Assembly: GCA_002841355.1 (NCBI GenBank)
Contig: PHFB01000002.1
Coordinates: 1 to 64,000, forward strand
Direction: 5' to 3'
Source: Actinobacteria bacterium HGW-Actinobacteria-1
GTDB taxonomy: Bacteria; Actinomycetota; Coriobacteriia; Anaerosomatales; Anaerosomataceae
Length of the DNA: 64,000 bases
A model generated the notes under the pieces. That model was not told the origin of the DNA, ran no database searches, and saw only the letters and a list, made by a program, of their open reading frames with translations. The position numbers and the translations under genes were made by a program. Positions 8,274 to 16,703 of this stretch are shown piece by piece (the stretch's first letter is position 1; every line of letters starts with the position of its first letter).

Positions 8274-9029
8274 CTACCGCTCGACGCGCGTCCAGCGGCA
8301 CACGCGTGCCTCGGCAACTTCGAGAAGCTCGTAGAGCACCACGCCGAGCATCGCCATGCTGATGATTCCGGCGAACATCTCGCTGTACGCGATGCGGCTC
8401 CAGGCGTCGATGATGTAGTAGCCAAGCCCCTCGCTTCCCGCCACGGTCTCCGAGAAGAAGAGCACGGCGATCGCGGTGCCGGTGCTGATTCGAAGCGCCG
8501 TGAAGATGTCGGGCAGCGCGGCCGGCACCACCACGTGACGGAAGACCTGCCAGCGCGTGGCGCCGAGCGAGCGAACAGAGAGCACCGCCGAGGCAGGAAT
8601 GCCGCGTGCCGCATCGCGTGCGGTCACGAGTATCTGGAAGAAGACGATGAGCGTGATGAGCGCGATCTTCGGCAGATTGCCGATGCCGAGAAGCACGAGC
8701 AGCACCGGCAGGAACACGACCTTCGGCACCGGATAGGTGAGGAACACGAGCGGTGCCGCGATGGCATCGACGCGCGGGCTGCGTCCGATCGAGAGCCCGA
8801 GCGGGGTCGCGATCGCCGCGCCGATCGTCATCGAAGCCACGACGCGCCACGCGCTGATCCCCGCGTGTGGCAGCAGGTCCGAGAAGAAGAGCCGCCCGAA
8901 GTCGGAGAGCGCCGGAATCGGACCCGGGAGCGCCTGCGAGCCGATCGCCATGGAGAGCAGCTGCCAGCCCGCCAGCAAGACAGCGCTGGCGATAGCATAG
9001 CCCCCGATCCGTCGCAGCCATGCGTTCAT
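8274..9029 (-). CDS. ABC transporter permease, SsuC/TauC type
   Basis: 251 residues; ATG after GGGAGGCG. About six membrane helices with the BPD_transp_1 coupling motif region (SVRSLGATRWQVFRHVVVPAALPDIF) typical of nitrate/sulfonate/taurine permeases. The start overlaps the stop of the ATPase gene by four bases. With the ATPase and lipoprotein it forms a complete importer. The substrate cannot be read from sequence; this family takes up sulfonates, nitrate, thiamine precursors and similar small molecules. Confidence 0.92.
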   Translation of the reverse strand: MNAWLRRIGGYAIASAVLLAGWQLLSMAIGSQALPGPIPALSDFGRLFFSDLLPHAGISAWRVVASMTIGAAIATPLGLSIGRSPRVDAIAAPLVFLTYPVPKVVFLPVLLVLLGIGNLPKIALITLIVFFQILVTARDAARGIPASAVLSVRSLGATRWQVFRHVVVPAALPDIFTALRISTGTAIAVLFFSETVAGSEGLGYYIIDAWSRIAYSEMFAGIISMAMLGVVLYELLEVAEARVCRWTRVER

Positions 9030-9814
9030 CGGACGCCTCCCGCAAGCGTCGCGTCACGGAACGCGCCCTCGGCAGCGAGCAGGCGCCGCAACTCGACGCA
9101 GCGCTCAAGGAACGCCGCCGTTTCTCGGTAACCCTCTTCGCCCATTCCGGGGTTATCGACGATGGAAGCGACGCGACCCGGACGCGGCGACATCACAACG
9201 ACTCGCCTGCCGAGGAACACCGCCTCTTCGATGGAGTGCGTCACAAGCACCGAGGTGTGCCGGCGCTGCTGCCAGATGCCCAGGAGCAGGTTCTGCAGGT
9301 CTTCGCGCGTCAGCGCATCAAGTGCCGAGAGCGGCTCGTCCATGAGCAGCAGGTCCGCGTCGAGCGCAAGCGCACGCGCGAGTGCGAGCCGCTGGCGCAT
9401 GCCGCCAGAGAGCTCGCCCGGGTACGCCTCGGCGAACTCTGCCAGGCCGAGACGCTCGAGCGCCTCGGCGACGACCGTGCGACGCGTACTGGCATCGACG
9501 CCGCGAACCTCGAGTCCGAGCGCGGCGTTATGCGCGACGGACTTCCATGGCAGCAGGCCGAAGTCCTGCAGGATCAGTGCCGTGCGTCTGCGGGGACGCG
9601 CGATCGCCTCGCCGCCCACCAGCACCTCGCCGGCGTCGGCGGGCAGCAGCCCCGCAAGCGCCAGAAGCAGTGTGGACTTGCCGCAGCCCGAGGGGCCGAT
9701 GATGGCGATAGGCTCGCCGTCACCGACCTCAAGACTCATTCCCGACAGAGCCGGGACGTCGCGACCCACGCCAGCATACGTGACGGCGAGGTCTCGGACC
9801 GATACGGCTGCCAC
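9026..9814 (-). CDS. ABC transporter ATP-binding protein, SsuB/TauB type
   Basis: 262 residues; GTG start at 9814 with AAGG seven bases upstream. Walker A GPSGCGKST about residue 39, Q-loop in LILQDFGLLPW, signature LSGGMRQR, Walker B LLLMDEP, and the switch His in VLVTHSIEEA. It energises the permease encoded immediately downstream. All catalytic motifs are intact. Confidence 0.95.
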   Translation of the reverse strand: MAAVSVRDLAVTYAGVGRDVPALSGMSLEVGDGEPIAIIGPSGCGKSTLLLALAGLLPADAGEVLVGGEAIARPRRRTALILQDFGLLPWKSVAHNAALGLEVRGVDASTRRTVVAEALERLGLAEFAEAYPGELSGGMRQRLALARALALDADLLLMDEPLSALDALTREDLQNLLLGIWQQRRHTSVLVTHSIEEAVFLGRRVVVMSPRPGRVASIVDNPGMGEEGYRETAAFLERCVELRRLLAAEGAFRDATLAGGVR

Positions 9815-9823
9815 GGGGTGTCC

Positions 9824-10822
9824 TTACTCGGGCAGAGCCTGCACGAGATCGGCGTACGTGACGTCGGCCTTGAGCAGCTCCTTGGACTTCATCCAGGTGA
9901 GCACCGCGTCGACCTCGGCCTGTGTGGGAGGCGCGGCCTTCGGGTACGCGTTGACCGGGTAGGTGTCCTTGAGCGGCTCAGGCAGGCGCGCCTTGTCGAC
10001 GAGCAGTGCGCGGAAAGCGTTCGGGTCGGCGTTGATGACGTCCACTGACTGATCCCACACGCCGAGCAGCTCCTTCACAGTGAGCATCCCGCCGGGGGTT
10101 GCCATGAACTTGTCCGATACACCCAGCACGGTCTGCGTGAGATTCGCGCCGGTAGTGTCATCGGCAATGAGCACGGCGCCCTGCGAGACCGCAAGCGTGA
10201 GGAACGGCTCGGGCAGCGCCGCGGCCTCGAGTTTGCCATTCATGAGCAGCTCGAAGCGAACCGGCACCTTGGCGACGACTTCCTTCTTCACGTTGTCGGC
10301 CGGGACGTTCGCAGCGGACATGAGGCCGTCGAGCACGTACTCCTGGATGGTCGCCGACGACGTAGCGACCGGCACGCCGGCAAGATCCGCAAGCGTCTTG
10401 GCCTTGGAGCCCGGCTTCGCGACGATGCCGAAGCGGCCTTCCTTGGCGGTGGCGCCGAGCATGACGGTGGCCATCGAGACCGGTGACCCGCCAGCCTCAA
10501 GAGCAGCTGACGCGATGATGTCGCCCATGTACGCATCGATGGCGCCGGATGCGAACGCAGCGTCGCGCTCCTGTGCGGCCTGGAAGATCAGGATCTCTAC
10601 CGAGAGACCGGCCTTCTCGAACAGCCCCTGCTGCTCGGCGACCCACAGCGGCAGCGAATCCTCGGTGGGAAGCGTTCCGATCTTGATCGGGACGGTCTCG
10701 GTGGTGATCGACGTACCGTCCGAGACGGCCGGCTCGTCCTTCTTGGCGCAGCCCACCAGTGCACCCGCTGCAAGCGCGATGACAAGGAGCAGGGCAAACA
10801 AGCGGATACGGGTGGTTCTCAC
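9824..10822 (-). CDS. ABC transporter substrate-binding lipoprotein, NMT1/SsuA-like
   Basis: 332 residues from GTG 10822, chosen because GAGGAGG lies just upstream and because it places a lipoprotein signal (RTTRIRLFALL...LVGC) at the N-terminus. The mature part has the NMT1/THI5-like pattern: a strand start PIKIGTLPTEDSLPLWVAEQ, then QAAQERDAAFASGAIDAYMGD, and LADLAGVPVATS. It captures the substrate outside the membrane for the permease/ATPase pair. The ligand is unknown. Nine bases separate it from the ATPase gene. Confidence 0.9.
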   Translation of the reverse strand: MRTTRIRLFALLLVIALAAGALVGCAKKDEPAVSDGTSITTETVPIKIGTLPTEDSLPLWVAEQQGLFEKAGLSVEILIFQAAQERDAAFASGAIDAYMGDIIASAALEAGGSPVSMATVMLGATAKEGRFGIVAKPGSKAKTLADLAGVPVATSSATIQEYVLDGLMSAANVPADNVKKEVVAKVPVRFELLMNGKLEAAALPEPFLTLAVSQGAVLIADDTTGANLTQTVLGVSDKFMATPGGMLTVKELLGVWDQSVDVINADPNAFRALLVDKARLPEPLKDTYPVNAYPKAAPPTQAEVDAVLTWMKSKELLKADVTYADLVQALPE

Positions 10823-10860
10823 AGGTCCTCCTCGGTAGGTACGTACGACGTCGATGGAGC

Positions 10861-11478
10861 TTACGGACACACGGGGCGGCGCAGGCGGATCTCGTCGCGC
10901 ACCGGGATTCCGGCGAAGCCGGGGATGGCCTCGCCATGATGGTCGATCAGGATGCCGGTCTCGATCTCGTAGATCGCGAAGCCGTGCCGCTGGTAGAAGT
11001 GCAGCGCGGGAATGTCATCGTTGGTGGTGGCCGTCTTGAGGGCGTTCACACCCTTATCGCGTGCGGCGGCCACAGCGGCCTCGATAAGCGCGGAGCCCAC
11101 ACCCGAGCCCTGGAAGCCCGGGTACACCGAGAGCAGCACGAGCGCGAGCTCGCCGCGGTCGAGCGCGAGCGACACGAGGCCGGCAAACTCCCCGTCGCGC
11201 TCGGCGACGAGGTTCTCGGCGGAGAGGACGTCGAACGTGCGTCCGAAGGCGTCGACATCGGTCTCGCCCCAGGCGCGGTCGCAGATCTCCTCGATGTCGT
11301 GTCGGTCGCCAGGCGTCGCCGGCCGCACCGTGTAGTCGGCGTGGTCGCGTCCGGGCCGATGCTCCTGGCAGGTGACCGTGAGGCGCGCCTCGGTCAGTGG
11401 CAGGTCTTTGCCGCACACGGCGCAGCGGTACTGCGGATACGGCATCTCAAGTGATTCGTCTGCCCGGTCGGGTGTCAC
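10861..11478 (-). CDS. GNAT acetyltransferase with N-terminal zinc-ribbon-like segment
   Basis: 205 residues from GTG 11478, preceded by GGAGG at seven bases. Residues about 15-45 hold CAVCGKDL...TCQEH, a C-x2-C...C-x2-H pattern likely to bind zinc. Residues about 50-200 are a GNAT fold with the acetyl-CoA loop PGFQGSGVGSALI and NDDIPALHFYQRHGF. It sits 38 bases upstream of the ABC lipoprotein and may share its operon. The acceptor is unknown. Confidence 0.85.
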   Translation of the reverse strand: MTPDRADESLEMPYPQYRCAVCGKDLPLTEARLTVTCQEHRPGRDHADYTVRPATPGDRHDIEEICDRAWGETDVDAFGRTFDVLSAENLVAERDGEFAGLVSLALDRGELALVLLSVYPGFQGSGVGSALIEAAVAAARDKGVNALKTATTNDDIPALHFYQRHGFAIYEIETGILIDHHGEAIPGFAGIPVRDEIRLRRPVCP

Positions 11479-11576: not shown

Positions 11577-12464
11577 ATGTCCCGCATCCTGCCCTATCTC
11601 GATGAGTCACCGCTGGCCGCCGACGTGCTTTCCCGGGCGCAGATCGCGCTCACGGACCTTGACGGCACACTGCTCGGCCTTGGCGGGTCCGTGCTCATCG
11701 ACGCGGCTGGCGCACCTGCACTCACGACAGTCACCGCCATCACCGAGGTGAACAAGGCAGGCTTCGAGGTTGTGGTGTGCACAGGGCGCAACCGCATCCA
11801 GGCGGGCGAGGTCAGCCGCATCCTCGGCTGGAGCTCATTCATCGCCGAGCTTGGCTGCATAATCATGTACGACCGCCGCGAACCCGCCGAGTATCTCCTC
11901 GGCGATTGGCCGGAAGGGATGCTGCTTGAAGACGAGACGCCGCACCAGGCGATGACACGCTACGGTGCGCTGCGTGTGCTCACCGAGGCGTTCCCGGGCA
12001 AGATCGAGGAGCACGACCCGTGGCATACCGACCGAGAGGTCACGCACGTGCTGCGCGGCAACATCGATCGTGCGGCGGCGCAGGAAGCGCTCGATACTCT
12101 CGAGGTTCCGATCGCGATCATCGACAACGGGATCGTGCACCCGCCGCGACACACGCTTGTGGACGTCGAGGAAGTGCACGTCTACCACCTCGTGCCCAAG
12201 GGGACTTCGAAGGAGGCTGCGATACGCGTGCTGCTCGAGCGCCGGGGGCTTACACCCGACGAAGCCGTCGCGATCGGTGACTCGGCGACCGACGTCGAGA
12301 TGATGAACGCGGCGGCGCTTGGCATCCTCGTGAACAACGCGCTCAAGGATCCAAAGGTGCTGGCGGCTACCGAGGGCTTCGACACGATCGTGGCGACGCG
12401 TGCCGAGCGGGGCGACGGCTGGGCGGAATTCGCCCATGCATGGCTGGCTGCCAGAGGCCGCTAG
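11577..12464 (+). CDS. HAD-superfamily IIB hydrolase (mannosyl-3-phosphoglycerate phosphatase-like)
   Basis: 295 residues; ATG after CGAGGAG. Motif I is LTDLDGTLLG with the nucleophile Asp near residue 26, motif II VVVCTGRN, a conserved Lys in HLVPKGTSKEAA, and motif IV AIGDSATDVEMMNAA. The C2-type cap lies between motifs II and III. This set is typical of Cof/MPGP-like sugar-phosphate phosphatases. The substrate is unknown; no glucosyl- or mannosyl-phosphoglycerate synthase is nearby. Confidence 0.88.
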   Translation: MSRILPYLDESPLAADVLSRAQIALTDLDGTLLGLGGSVLIDAAGAPALTTVTAITEVNKAGFEVVVCTGRNRIQAGEVSRILGWSSFIAELGCIIMYDRREPAEYLLGDWPEGMLLEDETPHQAMTRYGALRVLTEAFPGKIEEHDPWHTDREVTHVLRGNIDRAAAQEALDTLEVPIAIIDNGIVHPPRHTLVDVEEVHVYHLVPKGTSKEAAIRVLLERRGLTPDEAVAIGDSATDVEMMNAAALGILVNNALKDPKVLAATEGFDTIVATRAERGDGWAEFAHAWLAARGR

Positions 12465-12479
12465 CGCGATTCCCCGGGA

Positions 12480-12508
12480 TTGCATAACCGCTGCTCAAGG
12501 CATACAAT
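12480..12508 (+). promoter_or_regulatory. Promoter of the magnesium locus
   Basis: -35 TTGCAT at 12480-12485, a 17-base spacer, and -10 TACAAT at 12503-12508. Transcription would start near 12515, just ahead of the M-box leader. Confidence 0.7.
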
Positions 12509-12540
12509 CGTCGGTGCCCTCAGGGGCGTTGACAACGTGT

Positions 12541-12710
12541 AAGGCTCCGTTCCGTTAGGTGCGGCTCCTGTTCGAACATAGGCCACTGCCCGGAAATGTC
12601 GAGAGACGCCAATGGGTAGAACAGCCCTCGCCGGCTTAAGGCGAAGGATAAGGTGGCTGGGCATCATTCGCCCTACGTCGGACAGTGCTCAAACTATGAC
12701 GAGGGAAGGG
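12541..12710 (+). ncRNA. M-box (ykoK) magnesium riboswitch
   Basis: Matches the conserved M-box core in order: CGTTAGGTGCGGCTCCTG (12553-12570), CACTGCCC, AATGTCGAGAGACGCCAATG (12595-12614), AACAG, CGGCTTAAGGCG, GGTGGCTGGGCAT, and CAGTGCTCAAA near the 3' end. This class folds around Mg2+ and turns off downstream genes when Mg2+ is plentiful. It is followed by an intrinsic terminator at 12770-12799 and then two Mg-related genes, as expected. Confidence 0.95.
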
Positions 12711-12716
12711 ACGCTC

Positions 12717-12740
12717 CGGACGCGCATCACGGCGTCCGGG
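12717..12740 (+). other. Hairpin between M-box and terminator
   Basis: CCGGACGC pairs with GCGTCCGG around a short loop. It lies between the aptamer and the terminator stem and may be part of the expression platform. Confidence 0.5.
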
Positions 12741-12769
12741 CGATACGCGCGGTTCCTTCGCGCTTCCGG

Positions 12770-12799
12770 CCCCTCGTCCATGCGGACGCAGGGGTTTTT
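12770..12799 (+). terminator. Rho-independent terminator of the M-box leader
   Basis: Stem CCCCT-CGTCC (12770-12779), loop ATGC, GGACG-C-AGGGG (12784-12794), followed by five T at 12795-12799. It lies about 60 bases after the aptamer and 140 before the GTG of the MgtE-like gene, so it is well placed for Mg-dependent attenuation. Confidence 0.85.
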
Positions 12800-12904
12800 C
12801 ATTGTCGTCAGACCTATAGCCGTGAGAACAGGACCCTCGTGACTCCATTCAGTCCGTAGGTCCCGGCTCCCGAACTTCCGGGGGGCGCGGGACCCCCGAG
12901 AGCA

Positions 12905-12927
12905 CCTTTCGGACGCTGTCCGAAGGG
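12905..12927 (+). other. Hairpin abutting the ribosome binding site of the MgtE-like gene
   Basis: CCTTTCGGAC (12905-12914), loop GCT, GTCCGAAGGG (12918-12927), paired over ten positions including one G-T. Its 3' arm runs into the GGGAGGGA ribosome site at 12925-12932, so folding could reduce translation. The stretch 12465-12938 otherwise holds promoter, riboswitch and terminator and no gene. Confidence 0.5.
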
Positions 12928-12938
12928 AGGGAGCTAGC

Positions 12939-14774
12939 GTGTTCTACTTGACCCGCATGTTGGGCAGGCCGGTGGTCGATGCCGCCGGTGAGACCATCGG
13001 TGCAATCAGCGACGTCGCCATCGCCACGCGCGAGGTATTCCCTCGCGTGACCTCACTCGCCTTCCTCGGCCCCGAGAAGACGCCGTTCATGCTGTCGTGG
13101 CGCAAGTACGTGGAGGCGATTGACGACGACCAGATCGTCCTGAACGTCACCCGCGACGCGCTTCGCTTCAGCTATCTGCAGCCGGACGAGATCCTGCTTG
13201 CCCGCGACCTACTCAACCAGCAGATCGTCGACACGCAGGGCATGAAGGTCGTGCGCGTAAACGACCTCAAGCTCTCCGAGTCGCGCCACCAGCTGCGCCT
13301 TCTCGGCGCGGAAGTGGGCGTCCGCGGTATCCTGCGCGGCCTGCATCCAGCGCTCGAACGGACCGTCGAGCGCATCGTGAAGCTCTTCGGTGGCTCCCTT
13401 GCCGAGGACATCATCGCGTGGAACTACATGGACCTGCTCGATCGCGACCTGTCGCACGTGCAGCTCTCGGTCACGCACAAGCGCCTGCACGAACTGCACC
13501 CGGCCGACATCGCCGACGTTCTCGAGCAGCTCTCCCCCGCCCAGCGGGCGAAGGTCTTCGAGCACCTCGACAACTCGCAGGCGGCCGACACGATCTCCGA
13601 GCTCGAAGACGCGTTCCAGGCCGACGTCATCGACGACCTCGGCAGCCAGCGTGCCTCGGACATCCTCGAGATCATGGACCCGGACGATGCCGCCGACATC
13701 ATCGGCGACCTCCCATACGACAAGGCCGAGGCGCTCCTTCGGCTCATGGGCGTTGAGGAGTCGGGCGCGGTCCGCGGGCTGCTCGGCTATCGAGAGAAGA
13801 CGGCCGGCGGCATCATGACGCCGGAGGTCACGACCGTGACCGAGGAGATGACCGTGCAGCAGGTCATCGACCACCTGCGCGGTGAGGCCGCCGAGAACGA
13901 GAGCATCTACTACATCTACGTCACCGACGAGACCGACCACCTGGAGGGCGTGATCTCCCTTCGCGACCTCGTGGTAAGCGACCCGGAGACGCTCGTCGCC
14001 GATATCGTCACCAAAGAGGTCATCACCGCGTATGTGGAGGATGACCAGGAAGACGTCGCCGAGACGATGAGCAAGTACGACCTGCTCGCCATGCCGGTCG
14101 TGGACGAGACGAACAAGCTTCTCGGCATCGTCACCGTCGACGACGCCCTCGACGTCCTCGAAGAGGAATCCGCCGAGGACCTCGAACTGGCGACCGGCCA
14201 GCGTGCCAAGACCGGCATCACCGGTATCTGGCGCTGGGTGTCGCGCAACGGCTGGCTCGTGGTGTGGGGCGCGCTCTTCCTGGTGGCCGCGATGATACCG
14301 TTTCCGGGAATCGCCATGCTCGTCCTGTTCGCAACGATCATCCTGCGCATCGCCGAGGACGTTGCCTCCCACGCGCTCTCGCGCGTGATCGAAACCGAAG
14401 ATGAAGAGGAGCGCACGCCGCTGTGGCGCCGCTTCGCAAGCGACGCGCTCGCCGGAACGGCGCTCGGTGTGCTCGTGGGCCTCGTAGCCGGCGCTGTGAC
14501 GTGGCTCGTGGAGGAGCCGTCCGGCGTGCTCGACCAGGGCCCTCGCATCGAGCTGGCGATCCTCGTAGGCCTCGTGTACGCGCTCGCCGTGCTCACGGTG
14601 TCGCTTATCGGGACACTCGTTGCGCGTGTTGCCGAGGGCGTCGCCCGGCGCGGACGGCGTGTCTCGGGCACCGCCATCACAGTCGTGCTCATGCTTGCGG
14701 GCATGCTCGTGTTCGCTGGACTCGCACTCGTCGCGTGGTACGTGCTCGCGTCCCAGGGCCTCGCCGGAATGTAG
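12939..14774 (+). CDS. PRC-barrel/MgtE_N/CBS protein with divergent membrane domain
   Basis: 611 residues from GTG 12939 with GGGAGGGA seven bases upstream. Order: PRC-barrel-like segments about 1-130, MgtE_N superhelix about 185-285 (LHPADIADVLEQL, then IMDPDDAADIIGDLP), a CBS pair about 290-405 (GGIMTPEVTTVTEE; VVDETNKLLGIVTVDD), and a C-terminal region of about 4-5 helices at 430-611. The glycine-rich GGNxGxQ-like signature of the MgtE pore was not found in the membrane part. It may therefore be a Mg2+-sensing regulator or partner rather than a channel (inference). It is under the M-box and 6 bases from the NRMT gene. Confidence 0.85.
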   Translation: MFYLTRMLGRPVVDAAGETIGAISDVAIATREVFPRVTSLAFLGPEKTPFMLSWRKYVEAIDDDQIVLNVTRDALRFSYLQPDEILLARDLLNQQIVDTQGMKVVRVNDLKLSESRHQLRLLGAEVGVRGILRGLHPALERTVERIVKLFGGSLAEDIIAWNYMDLLDRDLSHVQLSVTHKRLHELHPADIADVLEQLSPAQRAKVFEHLDNSQAADTISELEDAFQADVIDDLGSQRASDILEIMDPDDAADIIGDLPYDKAEALLRLMGVEESGAVRGLLGYREKTAGGIMTPEVTTVTEEMTVQQVIDHLRGEAAENESIYYIYVTDETDHLEGVISLRDLVVSDPETLVADIVTKEVITAYVEDDQEDVAETMSKYDLLAMPVVDETNKLLGIVTVDDALDVLEEESAEDLELATGQRAKTGITGIWRWVSRNGWLVVWGALFLVAAMIPFPGIAMLVLFATIILRIAEDVASHALSRVIETEDEEERTPLWRRFASDALAGTALGVLVGLVAGAVTWLVEEPSGVLDQGPRIELAILVGLVYALAVLTVSLIGTLVARVAEGVARRGRRVSGTAITVVLMLAGMLVFAGLALVAWYVLASQGLAGM

Positions 14775-14780
14775 CTGGAT

Positions 14781-16034
14781 ATGACCGAGGCGAAGACCAG
14801 GACCCGCAAGCGCACCGGCCTCTTCGCGCTGCTCGCCGTCATTGGCCCGGGCATCATCGCGGCCTCGGCCGGGAACGACTCCGGCGGCATCTCCACGTAC
14901 TCGGTTGCTGGCGCGAAGTACGGCTACACCATGCTGTGGATGATGCTCGCCATGACGCCCTCCTTCGCGATCGTACAGGAGATGGCGGGCCGCATGGGCG
15001 CCGTCACCGGCAAGGGGTTCTCGGCGCTGATCAGGGAGCGCTTCGGGGTGCGACCCACGTTCTTTGCGATGCTCATGCTGCTGGCAAGCAACGCCGCCAC
15101 CACGATCGCCGAGTTCGCCGGTATCGCGGCCGCTATGCAGCTCTTCGGCGTGTCGAAGTACATCTCCGTGCCGATCGCGGCCGTTGTGGTGTGGCTGCTC
15201 GTCGTGCGCGGCAGCTACCGCAACGTCGAGAAGGTGCTGCTGGCGCTCTCCTCGGTGTTCATCGCGTACGTCATTGCGGCCTTCCTCGCGAAGCCCGACC
15301 TCGGCACCGTGGCGACGGCGTTCGTCGTGCCGAGGATCGTCCCCACCCAGGCGTTCATCGCGCTCGCCATCGGTCTTACCGGCACGACGATCGCACCATG
15401 GATGCAGTTCCTGGTGCAGAGCAACATCGTGGACAAGGGCACGACGGTGAAGGAATGGGCGCTCGCACGCTGGGACGTCATCGTGGGCGCGATCGCAGCC
15501 AACGTGATCGCGTGCTTCATCATCATCACCACCGCGACCGTACTGCACCCGGCCGGCATCGAGGTCACCGGCGCCGGCGAAGCGGCACGCGCACTCGCGC
15601 CGCTTGCAGGCCACTATGCCGAGGCGCTCTTCGCCATCGGGCTCCTCTCGGCATCGGTGCTGGCGGCGGCAGTGCTGCCACTGACCGCAAGCTACGCGAT
15701 TTGCGAGGCGTTCGGCTGGGAGTCGGGCCTCGACCGCTCGTGGAGCGAAGCGCCGCTCTTCAACGGCCTCTACACCTTCGTCATCCTTGCCGGCGCCGCG
15801 GTCATCCTGCTGCCGGGTTTGAGCCTGATCGCGATCATGCTCGTGTCGCAGGTGGTCAACGGCATGCTCCTGCCGTTTTTGCTCATCTTCATGATGATCA
15901 TCATCAACGACCGCAAGATCATGGGTCGACACGTGAACGGGCCCGTCAACAACGTCTTCGCGTGGACCACCATCGTGGTCGTGATAACGCTCACCGTGCT
16001 GTTGCTCGGTATGACGCTCCTTGGGATTGGCTAA
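14781..16034 (+). CDS. NRAMP-related magnesium transporter (SLC11/NRMT type)
   Basis: 417 residues, about 11 helices, NRAMP fold. In helix 1 the canonical metal site DPGN is replaced by DSGG (within AGNDSGGIST). In helix 6 the canonical MPH is replaced by APW (GTTIAPWMQF). Loss of the helix-6 Met, which selects transition metals, is the hallmark of NRMT proteins shown to carry Mg2+ in Clostridium and Eggerthella. The M-box upstream independently supports Mg2+. Inner membrane uptake; cotranscribed with the MgtE-like gene. Confidence 0.9.
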   Translation: MTEAKTRTRKRTGLFALLAVIGPGIIAASAGNDSGGISTYSVAGAKYGYTMLWMMLAMTPSFAIVQEMAGRMGAVTGKGFSALIRERFGVRPTFFAMLMLLASNAATTIAEFAGIAAAMQLFGVSKYISVPIAAVVVWLLVVRGSYRNVEKVLLALSSVFIAYVIAAFLAKPDLGTVATAFVVPRIVPTQAFIALAIGLTGTTIAPWMQFLVQSNIVDKGTTVKEWALARWDVIVGAIAANVIACFIIITTATVLHPAGIEVTGAGEAARALAPLAGHYAEALFAIGLLSASVLAAAVLPLTASYAICEAFGWESGLDRSWSEAPLFNGLYTFVILAGAAVILLPGLSLIAIMLVSQVVNGMLLPFLLIFMMIIINDRKIMGRHVNGPVNNVFAWTTIVVVITLTVLLLGMTLLGIG

Positions 16035-16118: not shown

Positions 16119-16703
16119 ATGGCCGACAGCGAGAATGTCGCGTACTTGAAATCCGAAATGCGTTTGCGTGCGCGCGCCGCTCGCCGTGCAGTCATGCCCG
16201 AGCAGCGCGAAGCCGCATCCCACGCGGTCACCGAGGCGCTCCTCGCCCTTCCCGAGATGGTTGCGGCTCGCGCCGTCCTCGTCTACGGCTCCATGCCCGA
16301 GGAGGTCGACACCGCCGAGCTGATAGAGTCACTCTGGAGTCGCGGTGTTCGCGTTGCGCTCCCCCGCGTGCGCGGACGCCGAGATCTGCAACTGCACTGG
16401 CACGAGCGGGACCGGGAGCTCTGCATTGGCGCATATGGACTCAAGGAGCCGTGCCCCAAGGCACCCGAAGCGCTGCCCTCGGAGATCGATCTCGTCGTCG
16501 TGCCCGGCGTTGCATACGACCTCGAGTGCCGTCGCCTCGGACTGGGCGCCGGATACTACGACACCCTGCTGGCGGAGATGCGTGGCACGGCGGTCACGGT
16601 GGGAGTCGCCTTCGATGAACAGCTCGCACGCGAGGTGCCGTGCGGCGCGCATGATGAGCGCGTCGACGTGCTCGTCACCCCAACGCGGGTGGTCCGGCGG
16701 TAG
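16119..16703 (+). CDS. 5-formyltetrahydrofolate cyclo-ligase
   Basis: 194 residues; ATG after GGGGGGAGG. Converts 5-formyl-THF to 5,10-methenyl-THF using ATP. N-terminal KSEMRLRARAARRA binds nucleotide, and the C-terminal core VVVPGVAYDLECRRLGLGAGYYD is the family signature. Full length for the family (about 190). Convergent with the deacetylase gene, two bases between stops. Confidence 0.93.
   Translation: MADSENVAYLKSEMRLRARAARRAVMPEQREAASHAVTEALLALPEMVAARAVLVYGSMPEEVDTAELIESLWSRGVRVALPRVRGRRDLQLHWHERDRELCIGAYGLKEPCPKAPEALPSEIDLVVVPGVAYDLECRRLGLGAGYYDTLLAEMRGTAVTVGVAFDEQLAREVPCGAHDERVDVLVTPTRVVRR

Follow-up and report, generated by a model that had tools for sequence, protein, structure and literature searches.

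Within the 64,000-nucleotide stretch of contig PHFB01000002.1 analyzed here (the window; Actinobacteria bacterium HGW-Actinobacteria-1, assembly GCA_002841355.1, order Anaerosomatales, class Coriobacteriia, phylum Actinomycetota), an M-box Mg2+ riboswitch precedes two genes, open reading frame 1 (ORF1), which we call the partner, and ORF2, which encodes an NRAMP-related Mg2+ transporter (NRMT). To judge from comparison with its relatives, ORF1 looks like a former MgtE channel that has kept its sensor and lost its pore. This pore-dead MgtE is probably a Mg2+-responsive regulatory subunit of the NRMT, acting as a feedback brake in an operon that would govern Mg2+ uptake at two levels. The arrangement of riboswitch, MgtE-like gene and NRMT is known, as is the idea of feedback: Shin et al. 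(2014; PMC4072509) described operons that join an M-box to an MgtE-like gene and nrmT, proposed a feedback role for the MgtE-like protein, and found that it was not needed for transport. Their partner is described as a homologue of the cytoplasmic N domain only, whereas ORF1 adds a complete pore-dead MgtE membrane domain, and this domain is the new part. In the searchable literature, subscription literature lying outside the search, we found no description of the pore-dead five-helix form, of its plug-helix pattern, or of the ATPase fusion reported below.

A preliminary description of this region credited ORF1 with the sensor half of MgtE. Pfam indeed identifies MgtE_N and CBS domains, but the protein holds more than that half, with a PRC domain at its N terminus and a five-helix membrane domain at its C terminus. 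The latter barely matches PF01769 (27.9 bits vs a cut-off of 27.6), and the MgtE equivalog model TIGR00400 scores 220.7 bits, under its cut-off of 232.75. Shared with the MgtE Mg2+ channel of T. thermophilus (TtMgtE; 2zy9/4u9l) are the N domain, CBS pair, plug helix, and membrane fold; the N-terminal PRC-barrel sequence is extra. When aligned to TtMgtE, the equivalents of Asp91, Asp95, Asp214, Glu216, Asp247, Glu255, Glu258, and Asp259 are kept in 49/49 partners of the window's order, and the cytosolic Mg-site residues of ORF1 are D217 (the Glu59 equivalent), D249, D253, D369, E371, D381, D402, D405, E410, E413, and D414. These Mg-coordinating acids constitute the most invariant part of the partner. 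In TtMgtE, mutations at Mg4-Mg6 (Asp91/Asp247, Asp226/Asp250, Asp95) impair closing (PMC5882242).

The same domains could instead serve a purpose other than the gating of Mg2+ import, with the partner acting as a chaperone of the NRMT, delivering or buffering metal, or reading nucleotide energy charge through its CBS pair. Shin et al. raised a possible chaperone role for their dispensable partner (PMC4072509), and the equivalents of the ATP-site residues Tyr170 and Arg187 are kept in the partner, with that of Asp188 kept in most of the order. However, Phe227, which is needed for ATP binding in TtMgtE (PMC5529423), is Leu in ORF1, and the invariance is greatest at the acids that coordinate Mg2+ in MgtE, so that we regard a role of this kind as unlikely.

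The C-terminal region retains the architecture of an MgtE membrane domain. An AlphaFold2 model of ORF1 shows five long C-terminal helices (residues 430-610) at a mean predicted local distance difference test score of 84.6, although the overall predicted template modeling score is only 0.46 and the placement of the domains relative to one another is thus uncertain. The membrane domain of this model overlays the MgtE structures 4u9l/4u9n with Z scores of 14.6/14.3, at 2.4-2.5 Å over 134 residues and 11-13% identity. In the alignment column of Asp432, the pore Mg site of TtMgtE, Asp occurs in 0/74 five-helix partners of the phylum, in contrast to 12/12 canonical MgtEs, and ORF1 places Met585 (14691-14693) at this position. 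The partner also lacks Asn424, Pro425, and the helix-2 GGNTGNQ motif (GGN(T/S)G(N/S)Q), in whose place ORF1 carries R470-E473-D474-H478 and the window's order R-x-x-E/D-D/E-x-x-S-H/R. An alignment artefact at Asp432 was rejected, given that all canonical MgtEs in the same alignment keep the Asp and that the predicted fold overlays MgtE membrane structures. The missing pore residues led us to reject an ordinary MgtE co-transporter as well. The ratio of nonsynonymous to synonymous substitution rates, about 0.1-0.5 in close pairs, indicates purifying selection on the membrane domain and argues against a decaying pseudo-domain.

Comparison of partners across genomes reveals three forms of the C-terminal region. 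Most Coriobacteriia and certain other actinomycetes have the five-helix form, Eggerthellaceae-type genomes typically have a single C-terminal hydrophobic helix, and the partners found in other phyla are all soluble; the gene adjoins the NRMT even in relatives with a single helix or no membrane domain. In a tree with canonical MgtE as the outgroup, soluble partners group into a single clade (100/99), and one-helix partners into another that is nested among five-helix partners. An alternative tree in which all membrane-bound partners form one clade is not rejected by the approximately unbiased test (p-AU 0.28), so that helix loss, as opposed to gain, rests on parsimony and on the homology of the domain. 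Each of the plug-helix acids Glu255, Glu258, and Asp259 is present in 41/41 five-helix partners and in every canonical MgtE aligned at these positions, but the one-helix, soluble, and ATPase-fused forms have mostly or wholly lost them. Because these acids are kept where five helices remain, the pattern suggests that the sensor and the membrane domain are still mechanically coupled in the five-helix form.

These comparisons bear directly on whether the partner might itself move Mg2+, as a channel or transporter whose pore has changed, in which case the operon would encode two independent importers. The preserved five-helix MgtE fold, the purifying selection, and a PF01769 score just over the cut-off would fit such a protein. 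Set against them are the absence of Asp432 from every five-helix partner, the loss of the GGN motif, and the R/E/D/H charges in helix 2 of the order's partners, together with the finding that loss of Mg1 (Asp432) abolishes conduction by TtMgtE (PMC5882242). Given also the relatives that stay beside the NRMT with one helix or no membrane domain, we consider a second importer distinctly improbable.

ORF2 starts 6 bp after ORF1. Its best solved relative is EleNRMT of Eggerthella lenta (7qia; Ramanadane et al. 2022, PMC8806188), at 478 bits and an E value of 2.9e-142; the best MntH reaches 122 bits, and the NCBIfam MntH model 160 bits, below its cut-off of 430. The likeness to EleNRMT comprises the fold family and the ion-site residues, since Asp55/Gly58/Glu133/Thr224/Ala227/Trp229/Gln379 of EleNRMT correspond, at a constant offset of 22 in the alignment, to D33/G36/E111/T202/A205/W207/Q357 of ORF2, all identical. 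These residues are nearly invariant across the order and the class, and the Gln379 equivalent is invariant in a separate comparison. Helix 1 carries D-S-G-G and helix 6 carries T-x-x-A-P-W, of which DSGG and APW were first described; the second NRAMP histidine is Val in ORF2 and Asn in EleNRMT. The nearest relative found lies in a Coriobacteriia metagenome bin, with an NRMT 72% identical. EleNRMT transports both Mg2+ and Mn2+, does not transport Ca2+, and works without proton coupling (PMC8806188). It was studied without a partner, and the Eggerthella-type partners sampled have one C-terminal hydrophobic helix. The shared ion site, together with the M-box, supports the initial assignment of ORF2 as a Mg-regulated NRMT that would import Mg2+. 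That it is mainly an importer of Mn2+ or Fe2+ with a purely regulatory link to Mg2+ is very doubtful, for although EleNRMT also moves Mn2+ (PMC8806188) and Mn2+ was the preferred ion of the A. capsulatum relative (PMC4072509), ORF2 lies under M-box control and matches Mg2+-carrying EleNRMT at each of these ion-site residues.

The promoter, aptamer, and terminator originally proposed for the leader were all recovered. The aptamer matches RF00380 over its full length (model 1-169; 139 bits, E value 2.8e-31, gathering score 44) and is the sole Rfam match within the window. Among 47 leaders from the order, the majority have TACAAT or a close variant of it 17-18 bp from a TTG-type hexamer, usually 35-52 bases ahead of the aptamer. 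A generic promoter and terminator scan of the window detected neither element, the promoter being too weak for the scan, so that the promoter rests on its conservation among relatives and the terminator on folding. An 8-bp antiterminator, in which GACGAGGG pairs with CCCTCGTC, uses the 3' strand of the aptamer's P1 helix and excludes the terminator stem. This pairing is exact in 20/47 leaders, and further leaders contain altered yet complementary strands (GGGACGGGG with CCCCGTCTC, GGGATGAG with CTCATCCC). Single antiterminators were significant in a shuffle test in only 13/47 leaders; the case for them rests on the same pairing turning up repeatedly at the same position. Transcription of the operon is, on the strength of these elements, controlled by the M-box, with a predicted response to Mg2+. 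At low cytosolic Mg2+, the M-box would be unfolded and its P1 3' strand would pair with the 5' arm of the terminator, allowing both genes to be transcribed; at high Mg2+, the terminator would form.

Across the order, 54 of the 69 genomes contain an NRMT match and 51 an M-box. In every one of the 48 operons for which positions of both genes were obtained, the partner and the NRMT are same-strand neighbors, with the partner first in 47 and gaps of -7 to 36 bp; one genome (L127) shows the reversed order M-box, NRMT, partner. No one-frame fusion of partner and NRMT was found in the loci fetched. An M-box lies beside the NRMT in clostridial, acidobacterial, and other loci, and in none of the tested Eggerthellaceae-, Collinsella-, and other Coriobacteriales-type loci except that of the window's nearest relative. 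Canonical-type MgtE occurs in 12 of 15 genomes without an NRMT, as opposed to 3 of 54 with one, a split that follows family lines and is therefore not an independent test. In the window's own genome, a 2.44-Mb assembly that is 98% complete, no MgtE membrane domain was found besides that of ORF1. Certain actinomycete families (f33 and others; L231, L234, L239, L240) have a short PRC-like open reading frame of about 190-215 aa after the NRMT, and the five-helix partner of f33 is located elsewhere (L250-L254).

We infer that the partner still binds Mg2+ through its N and CBS domains, which would then close up, that it makes physical contact with the NRMT, and that the sign of its effect is inhibition. 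By analogy with MgtE, whose sensor closes its own pore, the partner is most likely a sensor of cytosolic Mg2+ that damps the NRMT, and at sufficient Mg2+ would slow or lock the transporter via the conserved plug helix and membrane domain. Several observations weigh against a regulatory subunit of this kind. NRMTs transport Mg2+ without a partner (PMC4072509), as does EleNRMT in liposomes (PMC8806188). Co-expression of the A. capsulatum partner with its Mn2+-preferring transporter gave no further rescue (PMC4072509), although improved rescue is not expected if the partner is a brake. The window's genome encodes one CorA, so that the operon is not its only route for Mg2+. Finally, the membrane domain evolves fast: its mean identity to ORF1 is 34%, where the N-terminal domain and the sensor domains reach 76-84%, and this would be odd for a tight conserved interface. 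The sensor-transporter unit suggested in the preliminary description is plausible nonetheless, and is strengthened by the adjacency of the two genes, the Mg-site residues, and the ATPase fusion, even though Shin et al. had published both the pairing and the idea of feedback in 2014.

The same sensor module also occurs fused to a Mg2+ transporter of another type. In two genomes of the phylum, PRC, MgtE_N, and CBS domains 60-61% identical to ORF1 are fused to an MgtA/MgtB Mg2+ P-type ATPase (TIGR01524, 1077 bits), an enzyme absent from the operon described here. The two fusion proteins are 87% alike. They represent 2/396 genomes of the search, a lower bound because few candidates were scored per genome, and both assemblies are fragmented, so that binning errors may affect the identity of the host but not the fusion. 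The cytosolic half of MgtE may be a portable Mg2+ governor, a broader proposal that we advance tentatively: a pore-dead channel would have become the obligate membrane regulatory subunit of the unrelated NRMT, would later have been trimmed to a one-helix or soluble form, and would separately have been fused to a Mg2+ P-type ATPase, such that one sensor would control three unrelated Mg2+ importers. The role of the MgtE-like gene beside nrmT was left open in 2014, and the conservation pattern described here gives a testable mechanism for it. It also suggests that NRMT structures and assays so far have lacked a natural subunit, and provides an example of a channel that became a regulatory subunit.

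Table 1. Coordinates of the operon elements in the window and of the sensor-ATPase fusion genes.
Feature	Position	Strand	Basis or remark
Promoter TTGCAT-N17-TACAAT	12480-12508	+	Sequence; type and spacing shared by the majority of 47 leaders from the order
M-box (ykoK leader) Mg2+ riboswitch aptamer	12544-12713	+	RF00380 covariance-model match
Antiterminator 5' strand GACGAGGG, inside aptamer 3' (P1) strand	12698-12705	+	
Antiterminator 3' strand CCCTCGTC, identical with terminator 5' arm	12771-12778	+	
Intrinsic terminator, hairpin (about 12769-12794) and T5	12769-12799	+	Folding
ORF1 ribosome-binding site GGGAGGG	12925-12931	+	Sequence inspection
ORF1 (partner), 611 aa: PRC, MgtE_N, CBS pair, plug helix, five-helix membrane domain of MgtE type that lacks the pore residues	12939-14774	+	
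ORF1 putative Mg2+ sensor, MgtE_N and CBS pair, residues 186-412	13494-14174	+	Mg-site acids conserved
ORF1 plug helix, about residues 400-419	14136-14195	+	Glu255/Glu258/Asp259 equivalents E410/E413/D414
ORF1 five-helix membrane domain	14226-14768	+	Alignment, predicted structure
ORF2, NRMT (SLC11/NRAMP-related Mg2+ transporter), 417 aa	14781-16034	+	NRAMP relative closest to EleNRMT; ion-site residues
Fusion of PRC, MgtE_N and CBS sensor with MgtA-type Mg2+ P-type ATPase, 1317 aa	L335:1590-5543, L336:1778-5731	-	

Genes of other kinds flank the operon in the window. About 85 bp past the NRMT lies a 5-formyltetrahydrofolate cyclo-ligase gene (16119-16703, + strand), whose membership in the operon is not clear. 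Upstream, a HAD-IIB phosphatase gene (11577-12464, + strand) ends just before the operon promoter, and permease-like, ABC-ATPase-like, and substrate-binding-like genes (8274-10870, - strand) form an apparent ATP-binding cassette (ABC) importer.

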